IMG/VR virus record: IMGVR_UViG_3300014839_000018
Location: 1 to 43,138 of that record
Direction: 5' to 3' (one strand)
DNA from: a virus
DNA: 43,138 bases
Shown piece after piece: positions 19,601-42,909 of the stretch. The stretch's first letter is position 1. Each line of letters starts with the position of its first letter. The notes below the pieces were generated by a model, which saw only the letters and a list, made by a program, of their open reading frames with translations, had not been told where the DNA came from and made no database searches. A program made the position numbers and the translations under genes.

Positions 19601-19936
19601 TGGTAATGTATCGTATGACTTAATAAGAGGATGGTAAGACTTTAATGATTTACCTAATGCACCACCCTGAGGTTTTTTCTCGAATCTGTAAACCATTTTA
19701 GGAAGACCGGCAATAGTTCTGGCTTTCTTTTCAATAGCAGTATATACCCAGCCCGTATACTTATTTGCCAACTGGTAGAAGTTCAGTAAAGGCTGAACAC
19801 CCGTATCAGTATAGGCGGTATACATACTTGGTATAATATCGTGTATCATTTCCATTTCAGCAGCTAATTGGTTTTGTGCCTGTGGTGTCGTTATTGCTTT
19901 ACTGCCGAAGATCTTAAAAGGAAAATGTTTTGCCAT
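16649..19936 (-). CDS. Portal protein fused to ADP-ribosyltransferase, MuF and a second ADP-ribosyltransferase domain
   Basis: A 1095-aa chain from ATG 19936; an in-frame TTG at 19966 would add 10 residues but is less likely. Residues ~1-450 are a phage portal ('KYTGWVYTAIEKKARTIAGL', 'EEIIWIKYNSLRNPYEG'). Residues ~472-622 are an ART-like domain with H489 in 'EVYHGTS', Y518 in 'KVYATDD' and E584 in 'RDIIRIE', the HYE catalytic set. Residues ~640-915 are a MuF head-morphogenesis domain ('SDLIARTETTSACSHAE', 'DARDTHAEA', 'CPGNGSLAEENCNCRC'). Residues ~923-1082 repeat the ART domain with H941, Y971 and E1036. Each ART is preceded by 'KGGPG(S/P)GRYP' and followed by an acidic tail. Both ARTs appear catalytically intact. 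ART attached to MuF suggests a packaged effector. Confidence 0.85.
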   Translation of the reverse strand: MAKHFPFKIFGSKAITTPQAQNQLAAEMEMIHDIIPSMYTAYTDTGVQPLLNFYQLANKYTGWVYTAIEKKARTIAGLPKMVYRFEKKPQGGALGKSLKSYHPLIKSYDTLPRHQRRQFLKDNGMARIAVDDSDLTALLCSPNSDEIEFNFWHGAVIRLELTGSIGIYKVPGLFSKYPVSMYNIPTTWTGDLKPLPGRDGKQMIRGYMYTDGNIRQEFTNEEIIWIKYNSLRNPYEGMSAIKSQLSSFNIDTYLLNQQSEFMKNHAVMGNTLTTEQSLTDDAFKSLRQQVRKIFQGGINSGKANVLHSGLKFDTPVRSTTREMMVKEIEHMVRDRILSAHDISAGKVGLVDVQNRSNLDTVNENYINETISPTSKLMCQYLTRDLAKLFDPAFVIDFILPKFENDQIQQENMEDLGAYVKTINEIRAAKDLEPVKWGDMPWIPFNLQQYTGETKPEATPAEVPTEEGSIQSKGGPGSGRYPSGSGEVYHGTSKEAAEKILSDGLQVGDKNSLGGAKVYATDDKSVAFSYARVTTRRMGTTPEILKDKQLAIVVCKSSAFKVNPESTTYKIAEKNVSNRDIIRIEVYKYTDIEKEDYSSPVIYYPKDSSKSKDDEIYCFFVIDESKEEEEEEEKSLPVKSIKSMTTEQKTKLWKKFDTTAKAYEPLYTKAFAGIFSAMKKEVIDNIEKKAVPVKCSISVVSKSNRQKWLKDNNGKIKGLCFDKKEMAKTIQNRIKPVMEKINKDIADEMVDTLTAGTKAAKFKYNVNDPKVQKYIGTRLRELSTSVTDTMADKVESSLSKDFEDGASILTMSENIADVFITEEKYRSDLIARTETTSACSHAELDAVEQMGLEDVLVKIWVAEPDARDTHAEAADKYSDGIPISEDFEVGGDSMSCPGNGSLAEENCNCRCMLVYDTKDAEKSFKGGPGPGRYPEGSGEVYHGTSKAAANKILKEGLLVEKTSKRSFECKIYATNNKALAMDYAKERANKDIPIDKRNLIIVVINSKAMEDDISFGLATGHQTETKNILPKDIIRIESYKYTDIKDIDDSKLDSIKPSKIYYPKDSSKSKDDEIYYYFSIDESEEDTNENTEDGAE
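16720..18127 (-). repeat. Direct DNA repeats marking the duplicated ART domain
   Basis: A 34-bp stretch at 16720-16753 recurs exactly at 18094-18127. Further similar blocks encode the 'GGPG.GRYP.GSGEVYHGTSK' entry to each domain (about 17102-17162 and 18454-18526). The interval between copies holds MuF. Conservation at the DNA level indicates that the ART module was duplicated recently or is homogenised. Confidence 0.85.
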
Positions 19937-19959
19937 TTGTTCACCATTCTTAATAAGTA

Positions 19960-20379
19960 TCACCAAGATATTTTAACAAGTTTTTTATCACTGAAATTCT
20001 TTGATATTTTTATGAGTCCGTAATCAAAGCATACAAGTTGATTTCCAATAAATCCAAAGTTATCTATTTTAATATCATTAAAGAAAGAAGGTATTTTTTC
20101 GGGATAATCTTTCTTACGGCCTATCTCAACTTTTTTCTGTAATAATATTTTTCCATCATTACTTATATGGGTACATGGAGCAAACCACTTTGCAAGAGGT
20201 GTGTGTTCTACCTCTTTCCAAATTGCCCACTCTTTTACATTCTGAAAATAAGCCTCATATTTTTCAATCTTAACTACCAGTGTTGTATCCACTGCACACC
20301 AGTATACATCTCGATAACACCCACAATCTATATACCGAGCAATTAAAATATCCTTATATGCTTGTATACTTATATCCAA
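19960..20379 (-). CDS. Minimal protein-kinase-like protein
   Basis: A 139-aa protein starting directly after the large terminase stop. It carries the ordered kinase residues in very compact form: a Gly-loop-like 'DCGCYRDVYWCAV', K37 in 'TLVVKIE' (VAIK lysine), E50 in 'NVKEWAIWKE' (helix C), hinge-like 'LLQKKVEIG', D102-x-K-x-x-N107 in 'NDIKIDNFGF' (HRDLKxxN equivalent) and D119 in 'VCFDYGL' (DFG equivalent). Normal kinase domains are about 250 aa, so most of the C-lobe is absent. Small kinase-like proteins occur in some phage genomes near packaging genes. Activity, substrate, or a purely structural role are unknown. Confidence 0.7.
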   Translation of the reverse strand: MDISIQAYKDILIARYIDCGCYRDVYWCAVDTTLVVKIEKYEAYFQNVKEWAIWKEVEHTPLAKWFAPCTHISNDGKILLQKKVEIGRKKDYPEKIPSFFNDIKIDNFGFIGNQLVCFDYGLIKISKNFSDKKLVKISW

Positions 20380-27619: not shown

Positions 27620-28453
27620 TTAGTACTCCATAAAAGATAAAATATGCTTTACTACTGCACAATTAAAAGCATTACCAATAGCATGGTATCTTTGATTATC
27701 AGTAATGCCTTCTGTATAATTATCTGGTAATGACTGTAATCGTTCATATTCTATCGAAGTAAATCCACGTAATCCAATGGTATCATGTATAAATCCGGCG
27801 CAATTTCTTTGTTTATGCTGTGTTGTAAGGCAGGTATTTTTACCAAAATAATTACATATTTTTATTTTTTTCTGTTGAACATAACTAAAAGCACTTTTAC
27901 ATATTTTACGACTGTTATCTTCAGGTAATACGTAATCTTCAACAATATCTTTTATAAATATTTTTTTGTCTATCGGTTTCGTAATACCTGTTATATTAGT
28001 CCAAAATAATCTTCTGCGGCTTTGTGCCGAAACTAAAGCAGCATCAAACATTATTGGAGGTACGCCTATTATTTTAGTAATAGTTGCACGATTTATTGCT
28101 GTCATGCTGTTTACATTCTCCAATACAAAATATTTTGGTTTAATATCTCTGAGCACTCGGATATATTCATAAAATAACCCTGAGTATATTCCACCAAGAC
28201 CTTGCCCATAAGTCTTCAGTTGTGAAAGGTCTTGGCACGGTGAACCTCCAATTAATAAATCAATATTTTTTAAGTTCTTACTATTGATTTTGCAGACATC
28301 TCCCAACTGAATAGTCTTAGGAAAATTTTTCATTGTAACAGTCATTGCGTGCCTATCTATTTCAGAGGCATAATAGACTTCAATTGGGGCACCTATTTCG
28401 TGCAAAGCCTGTTGTGCAACAGATATGCCATCAAATAAGCTTAGTACTCTCAT
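27620..28453 (-). CDS. DNA (cytosine-5) methyltransferase
   Basis: A 277-aa enzyme. Motif I 'RVLSLFDGISVAQQAL' binds SAM; 'IGGSPCQDLSQL' has the catalytic C73; 'VLENVNSM' gives the ENV motif (112-114); 'SAQSRRRLFW' is the QxRxR motif (144-148); the C-terminal 'GFTSIEYERLQSLPDNYTEG' then 'AIGNAFNCAVVKHIL' carries motifs IX-X. The GGSPC.DLS wording and short length resemble the DNMT3-like subclass. It overlaps the ParB-like gene by ATGA with GGAGG. Likely modifies phage DNA against host restriction; recognition site cannot be read from sequence. Confidence 0.95.
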   Translation of the reverse strand: MRVLSLFDGISVAQQALHEIGAPIEVYYASEIDRHAMTVTMKNFPKTIQLGDVCKINSKNLKNIDLLIGGSPCQDLSQLKTYGQGLGGIYSGLFYEYIRVLRDIKPKYFVLENVNSMTAINRATITKIIGVPPIMFDAALVSAQSRRRLFWTNITGITKPIDKKIFIKDIVEDYVLPEDNSRKICKSAFSYVQQKKIKICNYFGKNTCLTTQHKQRNCAGFIHDTIGLRGFTSIEYERLQSLPDNYTEGITDNQRYHAIGNAFNCAVVKHILSFMEY

Positions 28454-29046
28454 TTAGCCTCCATAACCATCTCACCAGCAGTTAATAAACCAACCATTTT
28501 TTTAAGTTTTATTTTTACTTTATCATAATTTTCCGGCTTTACCCTTAAGTAAATTATTTTGTATCCTTGTACACCAACACTTTCTTCAGGAATATCCTTC
28601 ATAACATCAAAATCATTTAAGTGTGTAAAACTCATTTCTTGACTGGAAAATCCACTACCAAGTTGAACTTCTTTAATGTCAAGAAATTTACGAAGTATAG
28701 TATCATCCCATGATGACAATTCACTGCTTTTATTATCTGCAATACCATAAGCAATCGCAGCCTGTTCACTGGGAAAGTCAACGAATATTGCTTTGATGGT
28801 TTTTGACCCGAGAATTGTCATAGCTTTTTTAGTCGTGTTACCTTTATGGATAACCATGTTTTTAGCCCAAACAACGACCGGAGAAATCTGCTTATGTATT
28901 TTAATAAGTTCAGCAAGTTCAATTGCCGCTTTATCATTTTTACGCGGATTATCCTTCCAATACTTCACACTGTCAATCGGAACCTCAATTAAAGTATTAA
29001 GGGGATAACTGGATTTCTTTACGACTGTCTTCTTTACAATTTGCAT
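28450..29046 (-). CDS. ParB N-terminal domain-like protein
   Basis: A 198-aa protein. 'VPIDSVKYWKDNPRKNDKAA' then 'LAELIKIHKQISPVVVW', 'NMVIHKGNTTKKAMTILG' and 'AIAYGIADNKSSELSSWDD' follow the ParB/Srx fold order. In ParB the phosphate loop is usually G-x-R-R; here it reads GNTTKKA (69-75), with Lys in place of Arg. Phage ParB-like proteins are often coupled to methyltransferases and may act as nucleases or CTPases. GAGGAG precedes ATG. Forms a modification cassette with the next gene. Confidence 0.85.
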   Translation of the reverse strand: MQIVKKTVVKKSSYPLNTLIEVPIDSVKYWKDNPRKNDKAAIELAELIKIHKQISPVVVWAKNMVIHKGNTTKKAMTILGSKTIKAIFVDFPSEQAAIAYGIADNKSSELSSWDDTILRKFLDIKEVQLGSGFSSQEMSFTHLNDFDVMKDIPEESVGVQGYKIIYLRVKPENYDKVKIKLKKMVGLLTAGEMVMEAK

Positions 29047-29049
29047 TTC

Positions 29050-31008
29050 TTACTCCTCGAAAATTTTGATAGTTTGTGTTAATTTATAAAACTCGTTTGT
29101 CAATTTCCATCTGGCTTTATTGTCTTTTAATGTCCTCGTAACCACTCCAATGGCTAAAAGATTCCCACAAAGCACATCGACCGTAGATTGAGCCAATTTA
29201 CAAGACCCCATTAGTTCCTTAGTATCAAGGTCATTATTTCTATTACTATAAATAGCCTTAACAATAAATAGATATCTACTGCTCGCCGTTGAACGTGCTA
29301 CATGCTTTATTATTGTTTTTGTCCTATCTGTTATGATTGTTTTATTTGTAAACAGTGATATACCACAAGCAAGCTGTACCAATTCTGCTGTGATACGTGT
29401 CGCCAATTCTACGAAAGGATTATGCTGGATATCCCTTGTATATTTATCACGATTAACCCCGGCACGTAAATAAGAAATCCAGGTACCGATATTGATAAAC
29501 CAATCCTCATCCTTATCTGTTATTTTTATAGCATCCTCATACTTTACAAGTAATACCTTTTTTGCTATCGCCGATAATTCAAGACCCATCTCCTTTTTAT
29601 GTGAACGGTTTGCAAGCGCTTTTTTAACATATTTATTTCTTCGTTCTAATTCTACTGGCAACGTAGTATTCCAGCGGATAAAACGTTCTCCGAGCATACT
29701 ACGTAAATCCGTGAGGTAATCAATCGCCGGTGTGACTGCTGCAAGAATCCCGAATTGCACTTTATATACTCTTTTTATTCCGGAAAAATTGAAATAACAT
29801 TCTCCATCATAGGCATCCCAAAGAATACCATTAATTTCATTACGTTCATTTTCGGGCATCGACAACACTGGAGTATAGTCTTTAATTACCAGTGTTTTTC
29901 CATCAAGCTGTGGTATAAGGGATGGGTCAGCATTACCAAAATTTTGCCCGCTTATTAGTGCCGCCCTTGTTATACCTCCCGTAAATACGATTCTTGCCGC
30001 GCCGATTAAGGACATAAGCGGAGCGGTCTTTCCGCCACCAGGTTCGCCTACAATAAATGACCATACAGGCGCGCCGGGCAACCTGTTTGCAATAATAGTA
30101 CCAAAAATAAAATCGAGAAGATATGTATCTTCCATATGTAGCCATTTTCCAAAAGTATCGTATACCTCTTGTACATGTACCGGAACACCATTTTCAATAA
30201 CAGTATCCGCACCTATTTTCTTTTCATCTTCTGTTAATGGGGCACAGTTATCAATGATATATTGAAAAGTCTTTTCTCTGTTTCTTTTATTTTGATTATA
30301 AACATCCCGTATATCAAAACCATCAACAGTATTTTTCGGCCATTCTATTTTATAGATTTCAGAGGTAACACTTTTTAAAAGATTAATGGCTTTTTCAATT
30401 CCTTTTCTACCGGCTTCATCATTATCAAAAAGTAAATAGACTTCCTTACCATCACATATAGGGATTAATTCTTGCTTTATAGTTGCAGCGCCGGGCACTC
30501 CAATAATAGCGGCATTGTCCGGTTCTATTTCCTGTAATACTAAAGTATCCCATTCGCCTTCACAAATAAAAACAATACCATAATCTTTCGGGATTCTCCA
30601 TACATTATACATAGTGGCAGGGCATCCGGTTGCATTCATAAAATTTCTGCCATCATACTTTTTAACATTTAATAGTTTATTTTTTGCCTGATTATAAACA
30701 GGTATAATAAAGAATCCATTAAATTCCCTAACACCTGCCTCAAGCAATGTTTCTTTTGACAGTCCTCTATCTTGTGCCAGTGCATCAATTTTATTTGTTG
30801 CTTCTTTTACAACGATTTCTAAAAACTTTTGAAATCCTCCGCCTTTCCCACAACTCTTGCAATCCCATGTTTTATTTTGGGATGCAACGTTGATATAAAA
30901 ATGTCCGCTGCTCCCACAAAAGATACAATTACCGACCGCGTGGTCTCCACTATCACTGGCCTTTTTAAACCCGAATTGATTGAATATTTTTAAATTATCA
31001 GTTATCAT
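29050..31008 (-). CDS. Primase-helicase fusion
   Basis: A 652-aa protein. A zinc finger with C28-x2-C31 and C50-x2-C53 recognises template. A TOPRIM domain follows with E150 in 'IVFICEGEWDTL' and D195, D197 in 'YLLFDNDEAG', the metal-binding residues of primer synthesis. The C-terminal half is a P-loop ATPase: Walker A 'GEPGGGKT' (321-328), then 'SGQNFGNADPSLIPQLDGKT' and 'LVIKDYT' with D377 as likely Walker B, and 'MLGERFIRWNT' with the sensor/finger region. It is expected to prime and unwind DNA at the phage fork. It lies beside the DNA methyltransferase and polymerase genes. Confidence 0.92.
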   Translation of the reverse strand: MITDNLKIFNQFGFKKASDSGDHAVGNCIFCGSSGHFYINVASQNKTWDCKSCGKGGGFQKFLEIVVKEATNKIDALAQDRGLSKETLLEAGVREFNGFFIIPVYNQAKNKLLNVKKYDGRNFMNATGCPATMYNVWRIPKDYGIVFICEGEWDTLVLQEIEPDNAAIIGVPGAATIKQELIPICDGKEVYLLFDNDEAGRKGIEKAINLLKSVTSEIYKIEWPKNTVDGFDIRDVYNQNKRNREKTFQYIIDNCAPLTEDEKKIGADTVIENGVPVHVQEVYDTFGKWLHMEDTYLLDFIFGTIIANRLPGAPVWSFIVGEPGGGKTAPLMSLIGAARIVFTGGITRAALISGQNFGNADPSLIPQLDGKTLVIKDYTPVLSMPENERNEINGILWDAYDGECYFNFSGIKRVYKVQFGILAAVTPAIDYLTDLRSMLGERFIRWNTTLPVELERRNKYVKKALANRSHKKEMGLELSAIAKKVLLVKYEDAIKITDKDEDWFINIGTWISYLRAGVNRDKYTRDIQHNPFVELATRITAELVQLACGISLFTNKTIITDRTKTIIKHVARSTASSRYLFIVKAIYSNRNNDLDTKELMGSCKLAQSTVDVLCGNLLAIGVVTRTLKDNKARWKLTNEFYKLTQTIKIFEE

Positions 31009-31013
31009 ATTTA

Positions 31014-31802
31014 TTATTTCCCGTAAATGTTTTTCATTATCATATCATATTCTTTTTTGGATTCTTTCACGCGTTTACAAGCAATATTATAATATTTTAA
31101 ATCCTTTTCAATACCTATAAAATTCCTCCCTGAATTTATACAAGCAATTGCTGTTGTGCCAGAACCTATACAATTATCGAGAACCGTATCATTATTATTT
31201 GTATATGTACGTATTAAGTATTCAAAAAGCGCTACAGGTTTTTGTGTCGGATGTAATGGCATATTTTTTATATCTGAATCAAACTTTATACAACTTCTTG
31301 AAAAATTTGTTTGTGCATAATATGCACGACCATCTTGATTGGTACGTGGGCCAATCGTTTCTGGTTTTTTTTGTACTATTTTAATCCCATTATTTTTAGC
31401 ATTAATGGGATAATATTTCATACGTTTTTCTTTAAGTAAAGATGCATGACCCATTGGTGCTTTACTAAATACTACAATATTTTCATGCATTTTCATTGGT
31501 TGATTCTTTGCATGAACAAAACCTATAGTACTATTTTTAATCCATATCCATTCATACTTAAACCATTCTATATTGCTATTTATTAATAATGTAGTAAATG
31601 GTTGTGAGGCAGTCAACACAATAGCGGAATTATCTTTAATAATCCGTTTATACTGTTCCCATAAAGGTTCAAAAGGAATAACAGTATCCCAATGACAAGA
31701 GGTAGTTCCATAAGGCAAATCACAAAGTATCATATCAATACTTTTATCCGGTATTTTCTTCATTACCTCTAAGCAATCACCGTTTATTATTGTATTAAGC
31801 AT
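31014..31802 (-). CDS. DNA N4/N6 (amino) methyltransferase, beta class
   Basis: A 262-aa enzyme. Catalytic motif IV is 'LCDLPYGTTSCHWD' (DLPY at 28-31), followed by 'IPFEPLWEQYKRI'. The SAM-binding motif I lies near the C-terminus ('VLDNCIGSGTTAIAC'), so the order IV...I marks the beta class. The wording around DLPYGTT..HWD..IPF matches a common phage adenine or N4-cytosine methyltransferase type. GAAAGGG precedes ATG. Together with the C5 enzyme the phage can place two kinds of methyl mark. Confidence 0.94.
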   Translation of the reverse strand: MLNTIINGDCLEVMKKIPDKSIDMILCDLPYGTTSCHWDTVIPFEPLWEQYKRIIKDNSAIVLTASQPFTTLLINSNIEWFKYEWIWIKNSTIGFVHAKNQPMKMHENIVVFSKAPMGHASLLKEKRMKYYPINAKNNGIKIVQKKPETIGPRTNQDGRAYYAQTNFSRSCIKFDSDIKNMPLHPTQKPVALFEYLIRTYTNNNDTVLDNCIGSGTTAIACINSGRNFIGIEKDLKYYNIACKRVKESKKEYDMIMKNIYGK

Positions 31803-31803
31803 A

Positions 31804-31953
31804 TTACCCTTTCATAAACAAGGTTGTAGTGGTCAAACAAGCTGCCGAAAACCAATAAATAGCACGCGTATAATCCTTACAAAATAAATACACTATACCT
31901 GCAAGTAAATCTATAACTGTAAGAGCAATCGGTAATACATTTCTTAGCATCAT
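31804..31953 (-). CDS. 49-aa membrane protein
   Basis: ATG 31953 overlaps the polymerase stop as ATGA. Product begins 'MMLRNVLPIALTVIDLLAGI' and continues 'VYLFCKDYTRAIYWFSAACL', giving two short hydrophobic segments separated by a charged loop. Ends 'TLFMKG' just before the methyltransferase start. Membrane topology with two helices; function unknown. Confidence 0.7.
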   Translation of the reverse strand: MMLRNVLPIALTVIDLLAGIVYLFCKDYTRAIYWFSAACLTTTTLFMKG

Positions 31954-33794
31954 TCCATACCCACCTTATCATTAAGATTATTTGACATAATGGAAACTTC
32001 CACGTTCAACTTCACTTTTATTTCCTTATATTGGCACATGATCCTTTTAATATTTTCCAGGATTTCTTTTAAGATTTCTTCCTTATATTTTAAATTGACT
32101 TCAAATATTATTTCATCATGCACTGGAAGAATAGGATAAATATCTAAACGTTCTTTTATCAGCCACTTGTGAACGTCAACCTGTGCATGTTTAAACAACG
32201 CAGCGGCGGAACCTTGAATCTTGAAGTCAGTCGCTGAGTAAAGTGCTTCACGAGGAACACGTAAGAATCTTCCAAAATATGTATATATTCCACCTTCTTT
32301 TTCCGCTTGTGTTGTGCAATCTTTCATAAATGCATATAGTTCAGGGTATAATTCCTTATCCCGTAAATATCCGATTTTGGTATTTTCCATTGTCAATCCC
32401 AGTGTCCTTGACGTAGTTTCAAGCCCAGCACCATAGAACATAGCAAAGCGGGCATTTTTTGCTTTGTTACGCATCGCTTTTTTTGCCTTAGGATACCATA
32501 ATTCTATTGAAGCAACTTTTCCTATTTTTAAACAGGATTTTTTCCATTCAAGTATTGTAGATTTATTTGTCAATAATGCAAAGGTAATTGCCTGTATAGG
32601 ATTAGTATATAATTCCCCGTACATTACTTCAGCGAAAGCATTATGAAAATCAAAATCGTTATCACATAATTCATAAAGCCGTTCACTATTAGTTCCTTGC
32701 ACGCCTAACCGCATTTCAATCCCGGAATAGTCAATACCAATAAAGTAATATCCTTTTCTTGGTATAAAACATTTGCGCGCCGGGACTGTGTACTGTTGAC
32801 CGGCTTTTACCTCTTTAGAAATATTTTGCATGTTCGGATGTTCGCTGGATTCTCTTCCGGTCTTTGCGCGATTAGTTATAATTGATGGGTGAAGAATATT
32901 GTTTACCGATAATTCCAAATAAGATTCAATCATCGCAGTACCTTTTGTATAGGCACGTTCTTTTTTGATACAATCTATAATAGGATTAGAAGGCAATAAA
33001 TCTAATGCCTCATTCCCTGTCAGGCTTTTCTTACCAGTTAACGGCATATGTAATTCAGTATATAATAAATGGATTAATTGTTTTGGGCTGTTTAAATTAA
33101 TTGGATGGCCAACAAGACTTTCCGTTCTTATTGTATTTTGTTCAATTTCTTTTTTCATAAAAGAAATCTGTTTAGAGGCTTCTACCTTGTCAACAGTAAT
33201 TCCCCTACGGTACATAGCAACGGTCATTTTAATTAATTCTATTTCATTAAGATACTCCTCGTACGCTGGGCTATCTTGTATGCATTTAAACATTGTTAGA
33301 AAAAGCAGGGCTATTCGTTGTCCGTCATTCGTTTGATATTCTTCCATCAACTTTTTTGGTATCTTATCAAAACTACCATATATTTTAAATGCCTTTGTTA
33401 CTTGTTTATCAATCGTCGCACATTCCGGGGAAAACCCGGCAAAAAATTCATAGCAGTAATCAAGAGACATCCTATTTGCTAAGTTATTGAGGTACTTAAA
33501 TTGTATCATTGTATCGTGTAAAGGCTTATCTTTCGCAATTATATAGCCTTCTTCAATTGTGAACCATAGCTCAAACGCAAGATTATGCGCAACGGCTTGG
33601 CACCTTGAAAACCAGAATTCTTTTAATCTTTTTTCAAAATTACCAATTCCATAATGTACTTCAGTATAACCATCGGGGTCATTACACCATGTAAACACGA
33701 CAGAAAAAATACAGACCTTCCCGATATAGGGTAAGCCAGTGGTCTCATAATCCACTGCGATTATATCCGTATCTAAAAAAGGTCTGTATTTCAT
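31950..33794 (-). CDS. Family A DNA polymerase with 3'-5' exonuclease domain
   Basis: A 614-aa replicative polymerase. Exonuclease: 'IIAVDYETTG' (D15, E17), 'AHNLAFEL' (N71, E75 where Asp is usual) and Y153-x3-D157. Polymerase: 'KTGRESSEHPNMQNIS' template contact (311-326), motif A 'YFIGIDYSGIEMRL' (D355), motif B 'NKAKNARFAMFYG' (443-455), motif C 'LPVHDEIIFEV' (D560). Between motifs A and B there is an extra stretch of ~40 residues (about 400-440). Length is compact, like other phage PolA enzymes. The Asp-to-Glu change in exo II may lower proofreading. Confidence 0.95.
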   Translation of the reverse strand: MKYRPFLDTDIIAVDYETTGLPYIGKVCIFSVVFTWCNDPDGYTEVHYGIGNFEKRLKEFWFSRCQAVAHNLAFELWFTIEEGYIIAKDKPLHDTMIQFKYLNNLANRMSLDYCYEFFAGFSPECATIDKQVTKAFKIYGSFDKIPKKLMEEYQTNDGQRIALLFLTMFKCIQDSPAYEEYLNEIELIKMTVAMYRRGITVDKVEASKQISFMKKEIEQNTIRTESLVGHPINLNSPKQLIHLLYTELHMPLTGKKSLTGNEALDLLPSNPIIDCIKKERAYTKGTAMIESYLELSVNNILHPSIITNRAKTGRESSEHPNMQNISKEVKAGQQYTVPARKCFIPRKGYYFIGIDYSGIEMRLGVQGTNSERLYELCDNDFDFHNAFAEVMYGELYTNPIQAITFALLTNKSTILEWKKSCLKIGKVASIELWYPKAKKAMRNKAKNARFAMFYGAGLETTSRTLGLTMENTKIGYLRDKELYPELYAFMKDCTTQAEKEGGIYTYFGRFLRVPREALYSATDFKIQGSAAALFKHAQVDVHKWLIKERLDIYPILPVHDEIIFEVNLKYKEEILKEILENIKRIMCQYKEIKVKLNVEVSIMSNNLNDKVGME

Positions 33795-33821: not shown

Positions 33822-34580
33822 TTATTTCTTCTTCAGGCTCGGAGCTTTTTTAACAACTTTTTTTGCATTGACAATAGGTGCCGGAGCTTCTGCTGCGCAC
33901 GATTCAAGACCTATTTCCCGGAGGAAATCAGATTCTTCAACCGTTTGTATAGCAAATTCTTCTGCGCCGAATTCGGAATCAATCAGGGCCTTGACAGCGC
34001 CTTCGAGTGAATCCTGTTCGCCAAGGTCAATATCGTTTGCAATACAAATTTCCTGCAAAGTTTTAAACTGTTCATCAGTTCCGTCTGAACCGGAATCGTC
34101 GTCGTCAGTCATTGTAGGTGCATCGTCCGTACCAGAATCGTCCGTACCGGAACCGTTTTCGAGAACTTCGAGAATTTCAATTTTGTAATTTGTAAAGCCA
34201 TCTTTTTCAACAGATTTACACGTTGCAGAAATAAGAGGATTGGTGGAAACAATATCATTCAGAATTTCTTCGATTTCGGAAATATCTTCCGGCCATGTAT
34301 AACCCAGCGCTTCAATACGATACCGAAGAATATTAATACCTATCTGATTGTCAAGATTGTTCCCATCAAAAGCCGACTTTCCCTGCTGTTCACCATCATC
34401 AACGGTGAACTGCCATGCAACACGTACTGCGCCGGAAGCCTTTGCTTCTTTAAGGGCAGCGGAAACGCGAAAATTATAGGTATCATCCGGCAATGTTGCA
34501 AAAGGATTTCCTGTAAAATTCTTTGCCATATCCTGAACCGCGCCATTCATCTGCTGTAATTTTTTCTTAAACACTGACAT
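33822..34580 (-). CDS. DUF669-like single-stranded DNA-binding protein
   Basis: A 252-aa protein. Residues 1-140 show the DUF669/SSB layout: 'GNPFATLPDDTYNFRVSAAL', 'VRVAWQFTVDDGEQQGKSAF', 'IEALGYTWPEDISEIEEILN' and 'TNYKIEILEV'. A highly acidic linker (about 143-170, Asp-rich) follows, and then a helical region and a Lys-rich C-terminus 'KKVVKKAPSLKKK'. Genes of this type sit beside Sak4-like ATPases in phage recombination/replication modules. The acidic segment resembles SSB tails that recruit partners, but here it is internal. Confidence 0.8.
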   Translation of the reverse strand: MSVFKKKLQQMNGAVQDMAKNFTGNPFATLPDDTYNFRVSAALKEAKASGAVRVAWQFTVDDGEQQGKSAFDGNNLDNQIGINILRYRIEALGYTWPEDISEIEEILNDIVSTNPLISATCKSVEKDGFTNYKIEILEVLENGSGTDDSGTDDAPTMTDDDDSGSDGTDEQFKTLQEICIANDIDLGEQDSLEGAVKALIDSEFGAEEFAIQTVEESDFLREIGLESCAAEAPAPIVNAKKVVKKAPSLKKK

Positions 34581-34650: not shown

Positions 34651-35544
34651 TTACCGACGCCGACCACCAACTTTTTTCTGTATACTCGCCACCACACCTT
34701 TCTTGGAAATTTCTTCCGTTTCCATTTTAAAAGTTTGTTCCTGTTTGTTTTGGAAAGCTGTTAAGATTGATTGATAACCTCCTTTTGGGTCATTGGAAAT
34801 TGGTACTGCATAAACCTGTTCACCCTTAGGTGTAATAAAAAATTCATTTGCCTGTAATGCAATTCCTGCCATTGCATATTCTGTTCCCTTTATTTGTAGG
34901 AAACGCTGTTTACCTCGATAATGCAACCAACACACGTTATCAATAACCGCACGATAATAGTCATCCGCTGGATTAGATAACAACGGGCAAATCTGGTCAT
35001 ATTTTTGTCCAGTGAATGTCGATTGCTCTTTTGTCTTTTCGTGACAAAGTACAATGAAGCCAAGACCAAGATTCATAATACGATTTTGGAAAGAACGAAA
35101 TTCCGTTTTGATAGCAGCCCAGTCCTTGCCAAAATTGTCTTCCCGTGGATATTCAATTCCATTCTTTTTACACACATAATTCATGCAAGATTGATAGGCT
35201 TCAAAACCAGTATCTACAACAACGGTCTTGAAATTCTTTTTGTCTTTTTCCAGTAAAGAAAGATACTCGAGAGCGTCTTCCCATTTTGTAATATCAAGGC
35301 GATAAATATTCAAAGCCTTGCCGCCTGGCTCAAACATAAAGAAAAGCGTATCCGGGAAAAGACTCGCAAGGGTGGTTTTTCCGATTTTCTTTTGTCCGTA
35401 GATTAACCAGGTATACGCACCAAGATTCCCCTCGGGCTTACGTTTTTCCGTAGGTAAAGACAAACGCTGGGTAACAATAGGTGTTTTTTTAATTAGCACC
35501 TTTTTTAATCCCAGCGGATGCCCTATTATTTTCCTCTGTACCAT
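34651..35544 (-). CDS. Sak4-like RecA-fold ATPase (AAA_24)
   Basis: A 297-aa protein. Walker A is 'IYGQKKIGKTT' (about 48-58), Walker B 'FKTVVVDTGFEAY' (D111), then 'GLGFIVLCHEK' matching the third strand and sensor of RecA-fold phage ATPases. Family members (AAA_24/Sak4) stimulate single-strand annealing and work with the adjacent SSB protein. The first ~35 residues are a basic extension. AAGGAG precedes ATG. The C-terminal ~60 residues are Lys/Arg-rich and may touch DNA. Confidence 0.88.
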   Translation of the reverse strand: MVQRKIIGHPLGLKKVLIKKTPIVTQRLSLPTEKRKPEGNLGAYTWLIYGQKKIGKTTLASLFPDTLFFMFEPGGKALNIYRLDITKWEDALEYLSLLEKDKKNFKTVVVDTGFEAYQSCMNYVCKKNGIEYPREDNFGKDWAAIKTEFRSFQNRIMNLGLGFIVLCHEKTKEQSTFTGQKYDQICPLLSNPADDYYRAVIDNVCWLHYRGKQRFLQIKGTEYAMAGIALQANEFFITPKGEQVYAVPISNDPKGGYQSILTAFQNKQEQTFKMETEEISKKGVVASIQKKVGGRRR

Positions 35545-35563: not shown

Positions 35564-35911
35564 TTATCCAACTAACTGACTTGACTGTTCCAATTTTTGC
35601 AACACATCTTCTGTAAAGGTATATTTACTGCCGACCAGCTCGTTTTTCTTATATTTCGTTTCAACCCTTGCAACCAGATTAAACCCTTTTTGGTCACGTT
35701 GTGTATGTGTAATAGTAAACCCCGGATGGCTGACTACCTTTACATCAGCGCAAAGAATTGGTACTTGAATTTCATGACCGTCTTTATGTAATGTAGCAGG
35801 TATGTATTTTGATTTTGTTCTGCCAGAATCCCGCAAAGGACTTACCATCTGAAACATAAATTTATTCAGATGAGAATACCCACCGTTAAAAATTTTAGTT
35901 TTCAAGGACAA
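35564..35911 (-). CDS. Small protein of unknown function in the recombination module
   Basis: A 115-aa, beta-rich, basic protein with 'PVLCADVKVV'-like strands ('IQVPILCADVKVVSHPGF') and a helical end ('TEDVLQKLEQSSQLVG'). It overlaps the upstream gene by 17 bases and precedes the Sak4-like ATPase. Context suggests a DNA transaction role; no motif recognised. Confidence 0.6.
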   Translation of the reverse strand: MSLKTKIFNGGYSHLNKFMFQMVSPLRDSGRTKSKYIPATLHKDGHEIQVPILCADVKVVSHPGFTITHTQRDQKGFNLVARVETKYKKNELVGSKYTFTEDVLQKLEQSSQLVG

Positions 35912-36227
35912 CTCCTTTGGTAAGATAATTTGATTTTACGGAAAATCCCGGAGTATAGTACGGGTCTGTTTTTTGTAAATACTCAAGACAATCCCAGCAT
36001 TTATTTACCGCAAGTAATAAACCATTAACGGTTAATTCTTTACCAGTAAGTAAATCAGCAACACGGTTAGGGTCATTACCTTGTTTGTAAAGATTTTTTA
36101 TATAGTCAAGGTCTTTTACCCGTACATACTCCAGTGTCTTTCCTTTGTACTTACCGAAAGTAAAAACGTATTGACGCCATGCGTTTTTCTTTTCATGTTC
36201 GGCTTGTTTACTGCTCGGGAAATTCAA
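35895..36227 (-). CDS. ExoX C-terminal-like (DUF3820-type) protein
   Basis: A 110-aa protein with 'YVFTFGKYKGKTLEYVRVKD' followed by 'LDYIKNLYKQG', the FGKyKGk.l.ev...D..Yl.wl motif found at the C-terminus of exodeoxyribonuclease X and in stand-alone phage proteins. That module is thought to bind nucleic acid. The rest carries a Cys/Trp pair (NKCWDCLEYL). It overlaps both neighbours, fitting the recombination operon. Confidence 0.78.
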   Translation of the reverse strand: MNFPSSKQAEHEKKNAWRQYVFTFGKYKGKTLEYVRVKDLDYIKNLYKQGNDPNRVADLLTGKELTVNGLLLAVNKCWDCLEYLQKTDPYYTPGFSVKSNYLTKGVVLEN

Positions 36228-37410: not shown

Positions 37411-37584
37411 TCAACCTTTCCTATAATAAGTACATTTTGGATTTGAGCACCAAATTAATACTTCTTTAAAGTTTGCCGCTAATTTACACCCGCAACCTTT
37501 TGGGCATAATTCTTTTGTAAAGTGCGAAAACTTACCTTTTTTCTTTATGGTAAATTTTGGCTTAATCTTTTTTATAACCATCAT
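37411..37584 (-). CDS. 57-aa zinc-ribbon protein overlapping the nuclease gene
   Basis: Starts ATG 37584 with AGGAG seven bases upstream, inside the last residues of the nuclease gene. A Lys-rich start ('VIKKIKPKFTIKKKGKFSHF') leads to 'ELCPKGCGCKL' and 'WCSNPKCTYY', five cysteines able to hold zinc. The wording (CP.Gc......CSn..C.yy) resembles short zinc ribbons found at the ends of topoisomerases and nucleases. Easily missed because of its size and overlap. Confidence 0.78.
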   Translation of the reverse strand: MMVIKKIKPKFTIKKKGKFSHFTKELCPKGCGCKLAANFKEVLIWCSNPKCTYYRKG

Positions 37585-38428
37585 CGTATAGCTCCTGAAA
37601 AAGAGGTTTGATTTTTATTTCCGGGTCTTTTCCGAGATAACATAATTTTAGGTACGGGCAGGTAAACATAGATTTACATGCACAGATATTTTTATACCAC
37701 ACCGCCCGCTCTAAAGTCTCAGAAGTTTTTTCGGTTAAGAAATTCATAAACTCTTTTATATGCTCTTCCTTAATATCAATATTCCAGCGTTTTATCCAGT
37801 GGTCAGGCTCGGCTTTAATTCCAGCCTTAATATCATTATAAACTTCCTTCGGTTTCTTTTTTGTAAAAGATGGATACCGAAAGACATCATACTCAACGCC
37901 GGTAATAAGATTTTCCTGGAGGTAATTCATTACACAATAGAACATTACCTGCCAATCATTATTCAAAACAATATCCATATCATCTTCGGATATACGGCTT
38001 TTAAATTTGTATTCGGAAAGAATACTAATACATCTACCATCAATTTTTCCCCGAAGTCTTACACCATTCGGTAATTTTACATTGTCGATAACGTACTCTG
38101 GTATGAAATGTTTTTTTGCTATTTTCGATATAGGGTATATCTTTACATATTCCTCAACAATAGCGGTTGTGGCCGCGATAATAAATTCCCTTTCCTCAGG
38201 GGTCCTCTCCTGCGGGAATGTATAGGTCGGCACGTGTTTCCCCAACCGCATAAATTCCAATAAGTGGTGTCCGTAACTACCAAGGGTCATGGGTAAACTT
38301 TCATTTACTTTTGTATAGCCCTTAGCCGCAAACAAAAATCTTTTTGGACAAGCCATATCATGTGCATACAAACTCTGTGAAATTCCTTCCACTTTCATAC
38401 TGTACTTATTAAGCGATATTGTTTTCAT
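37562..38428 (-). CDS. Cas4/RecB-like Fe-S PD-(D/E)XK nuclease
   Basis: A 288-aa nuclease. H54 in 'SYGHHLLEF', D130 in 'RGKIDGRC' and E139-Y-K141 in 'LSEYKFKS' form the PD-(D/E)XK centre. C27 in 'DMACPKRF' together with C-terminal cysteines in 'NICACKSMFTCPYLKLC' fits the one-plus-three arrangement that holds a 4Fe-4S cluster in Cas4, AddB and related exonucleases. Expected to cut or resect DNA ends next to the phage helicase and recombination proteins. Its start overlaps the UDG-like gene by 20 bases. Confidence 0.88.
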   Translation of the reverse strand: MKTISLNKYSMKVEGISQSLYAHDMACPKRFLFAAKGYTKVNESLPMTLGSYGHHLLEFMRLGKHVPTYTFPQERTPEEREFIIAATTAIVEEYVKIYPISKIAKKHFIPEYVIDNVKLPNGVRLRGKIDGRCISILSEYKFKSRISEDDMDIVLNNDWQVMFYCVMNYLQENLITGVEYDVFRYPSFTKKKPKEVYNDIKAGIKAEPDHWIKRWNIDIKEEHIKEFMNFLTEKTSETLERAVWYKNICACKSMFTCPYLKLCYLGKDPEIKIKPLFQELYDDGYKKD

Positions 38429-38909
38429 ATTTCCACTTTCTTATTTTGTTAATAGTATCAATATAAATATTACTTGTAAATCCACCAGCATCACGGATTA
38501 TCAACGGGTCGACAATAGTGAGATGCGGAACAGTTATTCTGGACTTATAGTATTTTTCAACATTTTTACCGCAAAGAATTACAGTATTGACATAACAGGC
38601 ATTTGCTACGGGCAATATGTGTTGCATACAAGTTAGAATCTGTTCTGACGTCGTTTCCAGGCTGTTTTCGCCTCGTTTTACTACTGGCCTACATAATACG
38701 ATGTTTTGAAACACGCTTGCCCTAAAATCAAGCCCTGTGTTGTCGCAAATAGCCTCAATAATTGCCAGTATTCCGGCACCAGATTTTCCGGTAATATCCT
38801 CTTCTTTTGTTGGAACGTCTAAAAGCCATAATATTCTACCGTTCTTGCAGCCTGTTTGCTGTACCTGATTTATACAATTTTTATAAAGATTACATGCTTG
38901 ACATTTCAT
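38409..38909 (-). CDS. Divergent uracil-DNA glycosylase-like Fe-S protein
   Basis: A 166-aa protein with family-4-UDG-like layout. C3-x2-C6 at the start, C73 in 'QNIVLCRPV' and C94 in 'QILTCMQHI' sit where family 4 UDGs bind a 4Fe-4S cluster. The usual GEAPG..ED..G.PF.G.AG motif is degraded to 'LLDVPTKEEDITGKSGAG' (residues ~29-46) and the HPS loop reads 'IVDPLII'. Catalytic activity on uracil is therefore doubtful; it may bind DNA or a partner nuclease. It overlaps both neighbours (RuvC-like and Cas4-like). Confidence 0.72.
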   Translation of the reverse strand: MKCQACNLYKNCINQVQQTGCKNGRILWLLDVPTKEEDITGKSGAGILAIIEAICDNTGLDFRASVFQNIVLCRPVVKRGENSLETTSEQILTCMQHILPVANACYVNTVILCGKNVEKYYKSRITVPHLTIVDPLIIRDAGGFTSNIYIDTINKIRKWKYENNIA

Positions 38910-39376
38910 AAATCACCCTTTGCCCATAATCCTATACCTATACTCGAAGCATTATGATTATTGGTAGTTTCAATTTTAAATTTTTTTGTCAGAATATTCC
39001 GTAGTTGTTCATAATTTAACTGACCTTTCCACTTCGCTGGTTTGACCAAAATTGTATATTTACAATTAAGATTTCCAACTATAGAACCGGATATATACGC
39101 TAACAGTGAAAGATTTCCACGCGCACCGGATACCTGGCTTTTAAGAGAAGCAGTATAGAACTCGGTTGATTCTATGAGGCATCCCTTAATATTGCCGGAA
39201 TACGTCATTCTAAAATGTAAACCTATAAACCGGATTAACTGCTCCTCTTTAAATTTTGGGGATATAGTATAGGTCTTAACAATATCGCCATTTTTCCATT
39301 CAGTAATAGAGGTATTAATTCCCGGGTCTACAGTAATCCATTCGCCTATTAAAAATTCTTTTATCGCCGGGAACAT
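38906..39376 (-). CDS. RuvC-like Holliday junction resolvase fold, possibly inactive
   Basis: A 156-aa protein. 'WITVDPGINTSIT' gives the first acid (D17) of the RuvC fold, 'GCLIESTEF' the second (E69), and 'NNHNASSIGIGLW' the last helix with H141. In active RuvC proteins this helix has D-x-x-D; here the second Asp position is Ser144. The fold is convincing but the active site looks incomplete, so the protein may be weakly active or only a junction binder. Overlaps both the helicase gene (16 bases) and the UDG-like gene. Confidence 0.75.
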   Translation of the reverse strand: MFPAIKEFLIGEWITVDPGINTSITEWKNGDIVKTYTISPKFKEEQLIRFIGLHFRMTYSGNIKGCLIESTEFYTASLKSQVSGARGNLSLLAYISGSIVGNLNCKYTILVKPAKWKGQLNYEQLRNILTKKFKIETTNNHNASSIGIGLWAKGDL

Positions 39377-40635
39377 ATTCCCCTCCTCAATCTGTCAAGC
39401 ATTTGTACCCTGTTTTCTTTATTTTGTAGAGATTGATAAATATCACTTTCCAAAGTATTAGCCGCGGTTAAATAAACTATATAGGAACCCTTTTCCGCCA
39501 TCACATCTACACAGCGAGCAAGCGTTTGCTTATAGGTCGTCAGTGACGCTGGAAGGGAAAAGAAAATAACAACGTCAACATTTTCCAATCTCGTACCATA
39601 TTTCCAGCAGGCTGGTTCTGCCACTAAGGTATTTAATATTCCACGATTAAATTGTAGTCTAAAATAATTTCGAGCATCGGTGCCGACTTTACCATATACA
39701 CATTTACAATTAAGTATTTTGGATATTGCTATTACTTCCTCGACATACCATGCCCATATTACTATCCGCTTACCTTTAAATTTTGTTTCCATGAGGTCTT
39801 TTAGAAACTTTAATTTTTCAGTACCGGAACATAACTGACGAATGTTTACCCAGCGTTGCCCGGCAAACTTTAAAATATCATCTCCTATCATAGCGTCTTT
39901 TTCAATTGTCTTTATGGTTTTATATGTTTCCTTACTTAGTTGTATCATAAAGGATTTTGATATAATAGTATTTTGAAGGTTTACATCCTTGAGGGTAAGA
40001 TTAGAGCAATACTTTTTTAGCATACCAGAAAGTAAAGTACGTCCTTCGGAAGTTATTTCTCTTCCATACCCGGACTGGTCTACTTTAAAATATTTGAAAC
40101 GGAATTGCCAGAAATTTATAGGCATTATTCTTTTGTCAATGAAACGAAATATTGCCCAATATCCTTCTTCTGTTTCGTCGGCAGGTGTTCCGGTAAGTAT
40201 TATACGAATAGGAATTCTTGAAGCATGTTCTAACAGGTATTGAGTAATTTTTGATGAAGGATTATTTATAAAACATTCATCCAGTATAATTGCATCCCAA
40301 TCATATTTTAAATAATTGAAGAATAAATGCGCCTCTTTATTTACAAAAAAGAAACCTGGTTTATTCTTTAATAATTCGAATTGAAAATTACGGGCCGGGG
40401 TTGTTCCTTGTGGAAAGTATACATGATAATCCGATTCAGCATTAATCTCTTCGAGCCATCCGTATATCGTGCTGTATGTCGTTACAACGAGTATACGCTG
40501 GGCCCGTATAGATTTTATATAGGTTAGGGCAGTGAGGGATTTACCAAGTCTCATTTCCCAAAACAAAGCGCCACATCCGCCCCGCTGGGATAAGTAATTG
40601 ACACCTTCAACCTGGTAGTTGCGTAGAGTTTTCAT
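39361..40635 (-). CDS. SNF2/DEAD-type DNA helicase
   Basis: A 424-aa superfamily 2 helicase. Start 'LRNYQVEGVNYL' (Q motif), Walker A 'WEMRLGKSLTAL' (about 26-37), motif II 'AIILDECFINN' (DECF, 119-122), motif III 'ILTGTPADE' (148-153). The second RecA lobe carries 'KGKRIVIWAWYVEEVIAISK', 'NTLVAEPACWKYGTRLENV' and motif VI 'YKQTLARCVD'. In motif VI the usual second Arg is replaced by Asp (LARCVD), which may affect ATP hydrolysis. Comparable compact helicases act in phage replication or recombination. It is the first gene of its transcription unit. Confidence 0.92.
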   Translation of the reverse strand: MKTLRNYQVEGVNYLSQRGGCGALFWEMRLGKSLTALTYIKSIRAQRILVVTTYSTIYGWLEEINAESDYHVYFPQGTTPARNFQFELLKNKPGFFFVNKEAHLFFNYLKYDWDAIILDECFINNPSSKITQYLLEHASRIPIRIILTGTPADETEEGYWAIFRFIDKRIMPINFWQFRFKYFKVDQSGYGREITSEGRTLLSGMLKKYCSNLTLKDVNLQNTIISKSFMIQLSKETYKTIKTIEKDAMIGDDILKFAGQRWVNIRQLCSGTEKLKFLKDLMETKFKGKRIVIWAWYVEEVIAISKILNCKCVYGKVGTDARNYFRLQFNRGILNTLVAEPACWKYGTRLENVDVVIFFSLPASLTTYKQTLARCVDVMAEKGSYIVYLTAANTLESDIYQSLQNKENRVQMLDRLRRGICSRR

Positions 40636-41859: not shown

Positions 41860-42909
41860 TTACCATGTCATATCTTCAATTTCTTTAGATACCTGCCCCA
41901 TATCAAAAACTTCGGCATCTGCGGCGCTTCTCGGATTATCTTTTGTAATTTCCATAATTGCTGTCATTGCCTGTGTTTTGAAAATATCTCCAGTACCAAA
42001 CATGGAAGACTGGGCTCGAGTACGAATAGGATTATCGCCATCCGTAGTACGTGCCGTTTTTTCATGGTCAACATAGTTTGTTATCGCATTAAGCATTGCA
42101 AAAGCGGAACCCTTTTCGGATGGGAAAGCATTATCATCACAAAATTCGTACTTCTCTAAAATCGCCCGTGCTTTGTTCTGCGCAGCAGTACTTTCTTCCA
42201 GCGTCGGGAATAGCTTATTGAGAAGCGCCGTCATAGTGGGTCTGGTCATCTTGCGCTTGGTTAGTTCATTGAAAGTATCGTTCAAGTTTTTAATATTAGC
42301 CTTGACGCTCTGTAGCGCTTTCTTAGCTAATTCCATCTGGCTCTGGGGATTAACATGAGTAATGCGCATGACTTTTTGGCCATCCGATAGAGACATATTA
42401 AGCGTATTGTTACATACAACCCGGACCGTTGACAGTTTGACAATTGCCGCTTTTCCCTGCTCACGAAAATCGGAGAAAAGAAGATACGGGTCGATAATAT
42501 CATCAGTGCCTTTGATTCTGATTTCCTGAGGAATTTTTACCATGCACCAGATTGTTTCGCCATTACCCAGGGCACCAGCTGTTTCGTAAAATGCGCCATC
42601 TTCAATTCCGATAATAGTATCTACCCAGGCAAATGCTTCATCGTTCTGGATAGGTGTGTAGGCAGGGCCAACCGTACTAAGATATTTTTGATTGTCCGCA
42701 CGAAATAATCCGAATGAAGGGATAAGTTCTCCGGCGATTAACGGATGAGAAAACTGTTCCTTGGTTATTTTCCAATCCATGTGTGCAAGCTTCATAGCTT
42801 CGCGCCACGTCTGAGTCTGTTTTACATTTACGCCAAGATGGTGCCAAGCTGGTTTTCCAGCCTGAAAAGTTTCTTCAATCCCGTTTTGGATACTGATATT
42901 ATGTGCCAC
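41860..42909 (-). CDS. DUF932 protein
   Basis: 349 aa, GTG start with AGGAG eight bases upstream. The order 'FQAGKPAWHHLGVNVK' near residue 15, 'YLSTVGPAYTPIQNDEAFAW', 'AFYETAGALGNGETIWCMVK', then 'VRVVCNNTLNMSL' matches the DUF932 family (phage/plasmid-like protein). Family members are common in phages, plasmids and near anti-restriction genes, but their biochemical role is not established. Full-length for the family. Likely an early accessory gene. Confidence 0.93.
   Translation of the reverse strand: MAHNISIQNGIEETFQAGKPAWHHLGVNVKQTQTWREAMKLAHMDWKITKEQFSHPLIAGELIPSFGLFRADNQKYLSTVGPAYTPIQNDEAFAWVDTIIGIEDGAFYETAGALGNGETIWCMVKIPQEIRIKGTDDIIDPYLLFSDFREQGKAAIVKLSTVRVVCNNTLNMSLSDGQKVMRITHVNPQSQMELAKKALQSVKANIKNLNDTFNELTKRKMTRPTMTALLNKLFPTLEESTAAQNKARAILEKYEFCDDNAFPSEKGSAFAMLNAITNYVDHEKTARTTDGDNPIRTRAQSSMFGTGDIFKTQAMTAIMEITKDNPRSAADAEVFDMGQVSKEIEDMTW

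Follow-up and report, generated by a model that had tools for sequence, protein, structure and literature searches.

The question raised by this locus is whether two DNA-repair folds with altered active sites, a RuvC-like protein and a protein resembling family-4 uracil-DNA glycosylases (UDGs), have become DNA-binding subunits of a single complex around an active Fe-S nuclease, as the initial annotation proposed. The window (the whole analyzed stretch of 43,138 bases) contains portal, terminase, and major head genes and was thus assigned to a tailed phage. The locus comprises the genes of the RuvC-like protein (156 aa, 38906..39376; phrog_1770, E 2.3e-6), the family-4-UDG-like protein (166 aa, 38409..38909; phmmer match to the T. 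maritima UDG, E 7e-5), a Cas4/AddB-like PD-(D/E)XK nuclease (288 aa, 37562..38428; PF12705, E 1.1e-4), and a zinc-ribbon-like protein recognized in the ORF list (57 aa with CxC...CxxxxC, 37411..37584), all on the minus strand. The four overlapping reading frames noticed in the initial annotation are all present, with measured overlaps of 4 nt (RuvC/UDG), 20 nt (UDG/Cas4), and 23 nt (Cas4/zinc ribbon), the last of which places the tiny zinc ribbon over the end of the nuclease gene, as described. The RuvC-like gene also overlaps by 16 nt the SNF2-family helicase gene (39361..40635, minus strand; PF00176, E 3.8e-13; PF00271, E 4.5e-8; phrog_62, E 2.5e-61), which is the first gene of the conserved module and whose orthologs are located upstream of RuvC in the related viruses. 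The promoter scan of the operon in the window yielded 21 sites vs. 21.2 expected.

On the 3' side of the zinc ribbon, the minus strand encodes a Sak4-like single-strand annealing ATPase (34651..35544; phrog_124, E 4.2e-32; PF13479), a single-strand DNA binding protein-like (SSB-like) protein (33822..34580; phrog_378, E 7e-7), a family A DNA polymerase, PolA (31950..33794; phrog_17, E 1.9e-78), and a DNA primase/helicase-like protein (29050..31008; phrog_239, E 3.6e-23; Toprim_2). The SNF2 helicase, the RuvC-like, UDG-like, and Cas4-like proteins, Sak4, the SSB-like protein, PolA, and the primase constitute a conserved phage replication/recombination module.

Related contigs were collected from IMG/VR, namely G001 (L001), G003 (L006), L040 (G008), G006 (L018), G007 (L019), L048 (G009), and G004 (L008), as well as the more distant G002 and G005. 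The pattern scan returned 17 stretches, ten of which were not RuvC-like and were dropped (L005, L007, L010-L016, L021), and two of which (L017, L020) were contigs already in the set; the remote L043 and L044 from the PolA scan were excluded from every count. The resulting sample consists of ten RuvC-like proteins, each encoded on a viral contig. The annotated phage collection gave no match to the RuvC-like proteins of the window or its relatives, two scans of genome contigs and single-sequence scans with the window UDG, nuclease, and helicase gave no relative, and no paper on this gene combination was found in the literature library searched.

In all seven linked records, a single RuvC-like gene and a single UDG-like gene adjoin or are one small ORF apart (a 58-aa ORF in G001); in G002 and G005, the two genes are unlinked. 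The order SNF2-RuvC-UDG-Cas4-Sak4 is found in the window, G006, G007, and L048, and the same order minus Cas4 in G003, L040, and G001, the ATPase of G001 not being Sak4-like by phmmer. G004, a 9.7-kb fragment, has this order with the Cas4-like gene and no UDG match. Sak4 orthologs adjoin the Cas4-like gene in G004, G006, G007, and L048. Recurrence of this order in divergent viruses shows that the cluster is more than a chance arrangement. A missing gene is weak evidence, because contigs may be fragments; in the three viruses where the Cas4-like gene is absent, its expected location is covered by sequence and occupied by other genes.

The AlphaFold model of the RuvC-like protein, built on the ten RuvC-like sequences (pLDDT 87.8, pTM 0.84), adopts the RuvC/RNase H-like fold and matches RuvC of T. 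thermophilus (6s16_B; Z 15.0, rmsd 2.8, 137 residues), D. radiodurans (Z 14.7), and phage bIL67 (Z 14.3); with E. coli RuvC included, the Z scores span 13.5 to 15.0, and the structurally aligned residues are only 10 to 14% identical. The profiles of the RuvC-like and UDG-like proteins, when compared with each other, are unrelated. By end offsets, the structure alignment of model residues 10..155 on the T. thermophilus chain 0..157 places Asp17 on D7, His141 on H143, and Ser144 on D146. The catalytic Asp and Glu of the resolvases are retained as Asp17 and Glu69, both invariant in the alignment of all ten RuvC-like proteins, and the third ligand, which may be Asp or His, is His141 in the window, as in Thermus and Deinococcus RuvC. 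Unlike in these resolvases, the fourth position is Ser144 (codon TCG, bases 38945-38947), which bears out the earlier observation of Ser at a catalytic Asp.

Published residue work indicates what this replacement might mean. The catalytic residues of DrRuvC are given as Asp7, Glu67, His139, and Asp142, with substitution reported to abolish activity (PMC9228767); for T. thermophilus RuvC, the available text describes a His143 to Asp change that raises activity and an inactivating E70Q change (PMC3834835); and the site of bIL67 RuvC is listed as D8, E71, D145, and D149 (PMC3864405). From these data, Ser144 predicts a cleavage-impaired protein in the window, with the kept ligands leaving an altered enzyme possible.

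The term "degraded," as applied to this protein in the initial annotation, is too simple a description of the pattern among its relatives. Ser occupies the fourth position in four of ten RuvC-like proteins (the window, G001, G003, L040) and Asp in six (G002, G004, G005, G006, G007, L048). Within the Ser-type group, with an identity of about 40 to 60%, three of the four ligands and the Ser itself are invariant. The 160-residue reference has 47 invariant positions, these residues included, and the probability that any three specified columns would all be invariant is (47/160)^3, about 0.025 as a rough and uncorrected estimate. The Ser-type viruses, four in all, group together as a single clade in the SNF2 tree (98/98), in the PolA tree of 6 rows (97/97), and in the RuvC tree, where branches are long and the Ser clade is the sole well-supported group. 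The window encodes the Ser by TCG, and G001, G003, and L040 by AGC or AGT; a switch between these codon sets is described as requiring two substitutions at once (PMC6872785). Thus, either Ser arose twice or it was preserved across the codon-set switch, which with four sequences is a hint only. Being common to four related viruses and encoded by two unconnected codon sets, the Ser looks fixed rather than decaying; judged from these sequences, RuvC either changed once and stayed so or reached Ser twice.

The model of the UDG-like protein, built on seven UDG-like sequences (pLDDT 89.4, pTM 0.86), is closest in fold to family-4 UDGs (T. thermophilus, T. maritima, S. tokodaii) and UdgX, with Z scores of 18 to 20 (T. 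thermophilus: Z 20.1, rmsd 2.4, 161 residues). It shares with them the four cysteines, which are complete in all seven linked UDGs and are predicted to hold an Fe-S cluster. Family-4 enzymes are defined by motif A, GE(A/G)PG, and motif B, HPS(S/A)(L/V)(L/V)R, and the functional residues of UdgX are given as E52, N91, H178, and R184 (PMC10359453). In contrast, the window protein has LDVPT in place of GEAPG and DPLIIRD in place of HPxxLLR, and a short loop before motif B. At the four UdgX positions, it has D, N, D, and D (the motif B Arg column being uncertain by one position), L040 has E, T, S, and H, and G007 has D, Y, H, and L. Accordingly scored, G001, G003, and G006 keep 4/4 residues, L048 keeps 3/4, and the window, L040, and G007 keep 1/4. 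The window protein is also the only one of the seven aligned UDGs that falls below Pfam detection by PF03167.

The initial annotation's view of a UDG-like fold that has lost its functional residues therefore holds for the window, with a fold match of Z 20.1 and one of four such residues kept. Its statement that the key loops have been lost stands in part: motifs A and B are changed, but relatives with intact motifs also have a short loop at this place, which hence marks a subfamily, not decay. Some elements of the site persist in the window protein, namely an acidic residue (Asp31), the Asn (Asn69), and an Arg (Arg139) one position away from the motif B Arg, so that weak or changed glycosylase activity is conceivable. 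The three diverged copies (window, L040, G007) have no new motif in common, and by parsimony on the trees the losses in the window and L040 are independent. Most simply, the UDG-fold protein would be a structural Fe-S subunit whose functional residues were lost at least twice, in the window and L040, and probably also in G007.

Phages often carry UDG-like genes of unclear role. We also aligned the unlinked UDGs of G002 and G005 and nine phage records that were selected from 43 matches and do not represent a census; 10 of these 11 UDGs keep all four residues, and phiXF1 has Asp for Glu. The UDG domain begins the family A polymerase gene in six phage records inspected (phiLo, ctfzr933, RHph_TM30, and others), and the phiLo polymerase structure is among the fold matches of the UDG model (9qhs_A, Z 14.5). 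Such fusion to the start of family A polymerases ties the UDG domain to the replisome. These polymerases resemble the window system in having the same UDG superfamily domain in a replication gene, and in ctfzr933 PD-(D/E)XK, AAA, and SNF2-like genes are nearby. They differ from it in that the domain is fused and the functional residues are kept, the N, H, and R being intact in 6/6 fused domains; the fusions thus speak for a site at the replisome, not for the loss of activity. The reverse of the window protein was observed in MW462191 (L052:4695-5525), where a UDG4-like protein has intact catalytic residues and two of its four cysteines replaced.

The nuclease appears intact, as claimed. Its match to PF12705 exceeds the cut-off narrowly in the window (22.7 bits vs. 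22), the family is matched in 5/5 orthologs, and the PD-(D/E)XK core residues His54, Asp130, Glu139-x-Lys141, and Gln160-x3-Tyr164 are invariant in all five. Four cysteines, one before the core (Cys27) and three after it (Cys251, 257, 263), are likewise invariant in 5/5 and form a putative cluster. The PF12705 match and the invariant motif residues point to a Cas4-like identity. By its motifs, its Cys pattern, and its position upstream of Sak4, the protein resembles the Cas4/AddB Fe-S PD-(D/E)XK nucleases that occur with phage Sak4-type proteins; its identity to the orthologs found is only 26 to 30%, and its Cys spacing differs from the usual Cas4 pattern. For the zinc ribbon, no protein family matched over the cut-off, and weak relatives were found at L040:3388-3687 (E 4.3e-7) and L036:19631-19876 (E 7.9e-5). 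In L040 and G001 these relatives are not beside a nuclease gene, so the linkage is not conserved.

Several readings of the altered RuvC site have to be weighed. A real, albeit doubtful, possibility is that the Ser-type protein still acts as a nuclease through a changed metal site, formed by Asp, Glu, His, and Ser or water; such an enzyme might be slower, Mn-dependent, or restricted to nicking. The conservation of Asp17, Glu69, and His141 in all four Ser-type proteins argues for a working metal site, Ser144 is as invariant as these ligands, and a third-position His is reported to function in the RuvC proteins of Thermus and Deinococcus (PMC3834835, PMC9228767). Moreover, each of the seven records has a single RuvC-like copy, and a substitute resolvase, sought as HNH (PF01844) and RusA (PF05866) in the same records at E <= 1, was not found; if RuvC were dead, the phage would depend on host enzymes or on an unrecognised resolvase. 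Against activity, substitution of Asp142 is described as removing the activity of DrRuvC (PMC9228767), and the other six of ten relatives keep the Asp. Decay of the whole set under relaxed selection, with these genes as leftovers of a module, is the least credible reading: the separate loss of UDG residues in three viruses agrees with it, but the frames stay open and overlapping at 19 to 42% identity to relatives, every Fe-S Cys is kept, the predicted models are well folded, and the RuvC Ser is fixed in four viruses.

The assembly proposed in the initial annotation, in which the RuvC-like, UDG-like, and Cas4-like proteins and the zinc ribbon form one complex, with the two dead enzymes bringing DNA to the active nuclease, is also improbable. 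It draws on the overlapping frames of the window and on the RuvC-UDG-Cas4 order of G006, G007, and L048. However, three of the four Ser-type viruses (G001, G003, L040) lack the Cas4-like gene, four of the five Cas4-linked RuvCs are canonical (G004, G006, G007, L048) with Ser in the window only, the G004 fragment has Cas4 without UDG, and the zinc ribbon is unlinked in other viruses. Since Ser, UDG loss, and nuclease presence are uncoupled across viruses, a single complex of two dead enzymes around the nuclease is disfavoured; the gene order makes contacts between neighbors, e.g., RuvC and UDG, plausible. Homologs with intact catalytic residues, which the initial annotation had counted against its proposal, do exist in the same operon (RuvC with HxxD in G004, G006, G007, and L048; UDG with 4/4 residues in G001, G003, and G006), whereas genetic linkage, whose lack it had counted likewise, holds. 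We give no more weight to the notion that the UDG-like protein is a glycosylase of new base specificity and not dead. The acidic motif A residue and the Asn are kept, and modified bases exist given the two DNA methyltransferases encoded by the virus, but the motif B His and Arg are gone, and a new motif shared by the three diverged copies is lacking.

We therefore favor, with a probability of about one-half, a recombination module in which the UDG-fold subunit is structural and glycosylase-dead and RuvC binds junctions but is impaired in cleaving them. By this comparison of sequences, the RuvC site is fixed and altered and the UDG site is decaying, two changes with separate histories. The genes would form the recombination arm of the replication module of a tailed phage: the Cas4-like nuclease would resect DNA ends for the Sak4 annealing protein, and the SNF2 helicase would remodel forks or branches. 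The RuvC-like dimer would still bind four-way or forked DNA and cleave it poorly or not at all, and the UDG-fold protein would no longer remove uracil, serving the replisome instead as a small Fe-S accessory protein that binds DNA, comparable to vaccinia D4.

The vaccinia UDG (D4) is described as having a catalysis-independent role in replication (PMC1936997). It has the UDG fold and is part of the polymerase processivity factor, and D4 entries appear in the Foldseek list of the window model; it differs in being a still active glycosylase of another UDG family, and an A20-like partner is not known in the window phage. For RuvC, a parallel is offered by TEFM, a pseudonuclease whose resolvase-like fold is reported to serve as a polymerase clamp (PMC9950373) and which the RuvC model matches (8u8v_A, Z 11.0). 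TEFM, however, is a mitochondrial transcription factor, and its likeness to the window protein is one of fold. A bolder version of the favored reading, in which the fixed Ser-type RuvC acts as a stable clamp on junctions, or as a resolvase of switched, low activity, together with the glycosylase-dead Fe-S UDG subunit at the replisome, as a counterpart of the TEFM and D4 processivity factors, would be rather unlikely. The Ser-type RuvC clade raises the question of whether a resolvase that retains three metal ligands out of four is still able to cut or has turned into a clamp for junctions. For the UDG, one operon type offers natural intact and eroded variants that all keep the Fe-S cysteines, which makes a role apart from uracil removal directly testable.

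Several further features of these genomes were observed. The three viruses without the Cas4-like gene (G001, G003, L040) are those in which an N-terminal domain of ~200 aa with Cys/His pairs is fused to the ATPase (L031:6864-8336, L040:7624-9165, L035:3483-4835); the fused ATPase is Sak4-like in G003 and L040, and the G001 copy is unmatched by the window Sak4. An assignment of this domain to HNH was rejected, as the likeness is by eye only and the G003 copy has no Pfam support. Directly upstream of the fused ATPase, all three viruses encode a common protein of ~210 aa. In L040, a 187-aa ORF with a GDAQV-type repeat (L040:5302-5865) is inserted between SNF2 and RuvC.

In the window, a DUF932 protein is encoded ahead of the module (41860-42909; PF06067, E 1.2e-41; phrog_1221), and a small protein at 35895-36227 lacks an exonuclease core but carries an ExoX-like domain at its C-terminus (PF20600, E 7.5e-8). 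The primase gene is flanked by C5-cytosine and N6/N4 DNA methyltransferase genes (27620-28453, 31014-31802), near which lies a ParB-like gene (28450-29046). Among the structural genes, a 1105-aa ORF (16649-19966) has separate stretches that match families of portal, head morphogenesis, and head maturation protease proteins, and it resembles a fusion of a portal with a MuF-like part.
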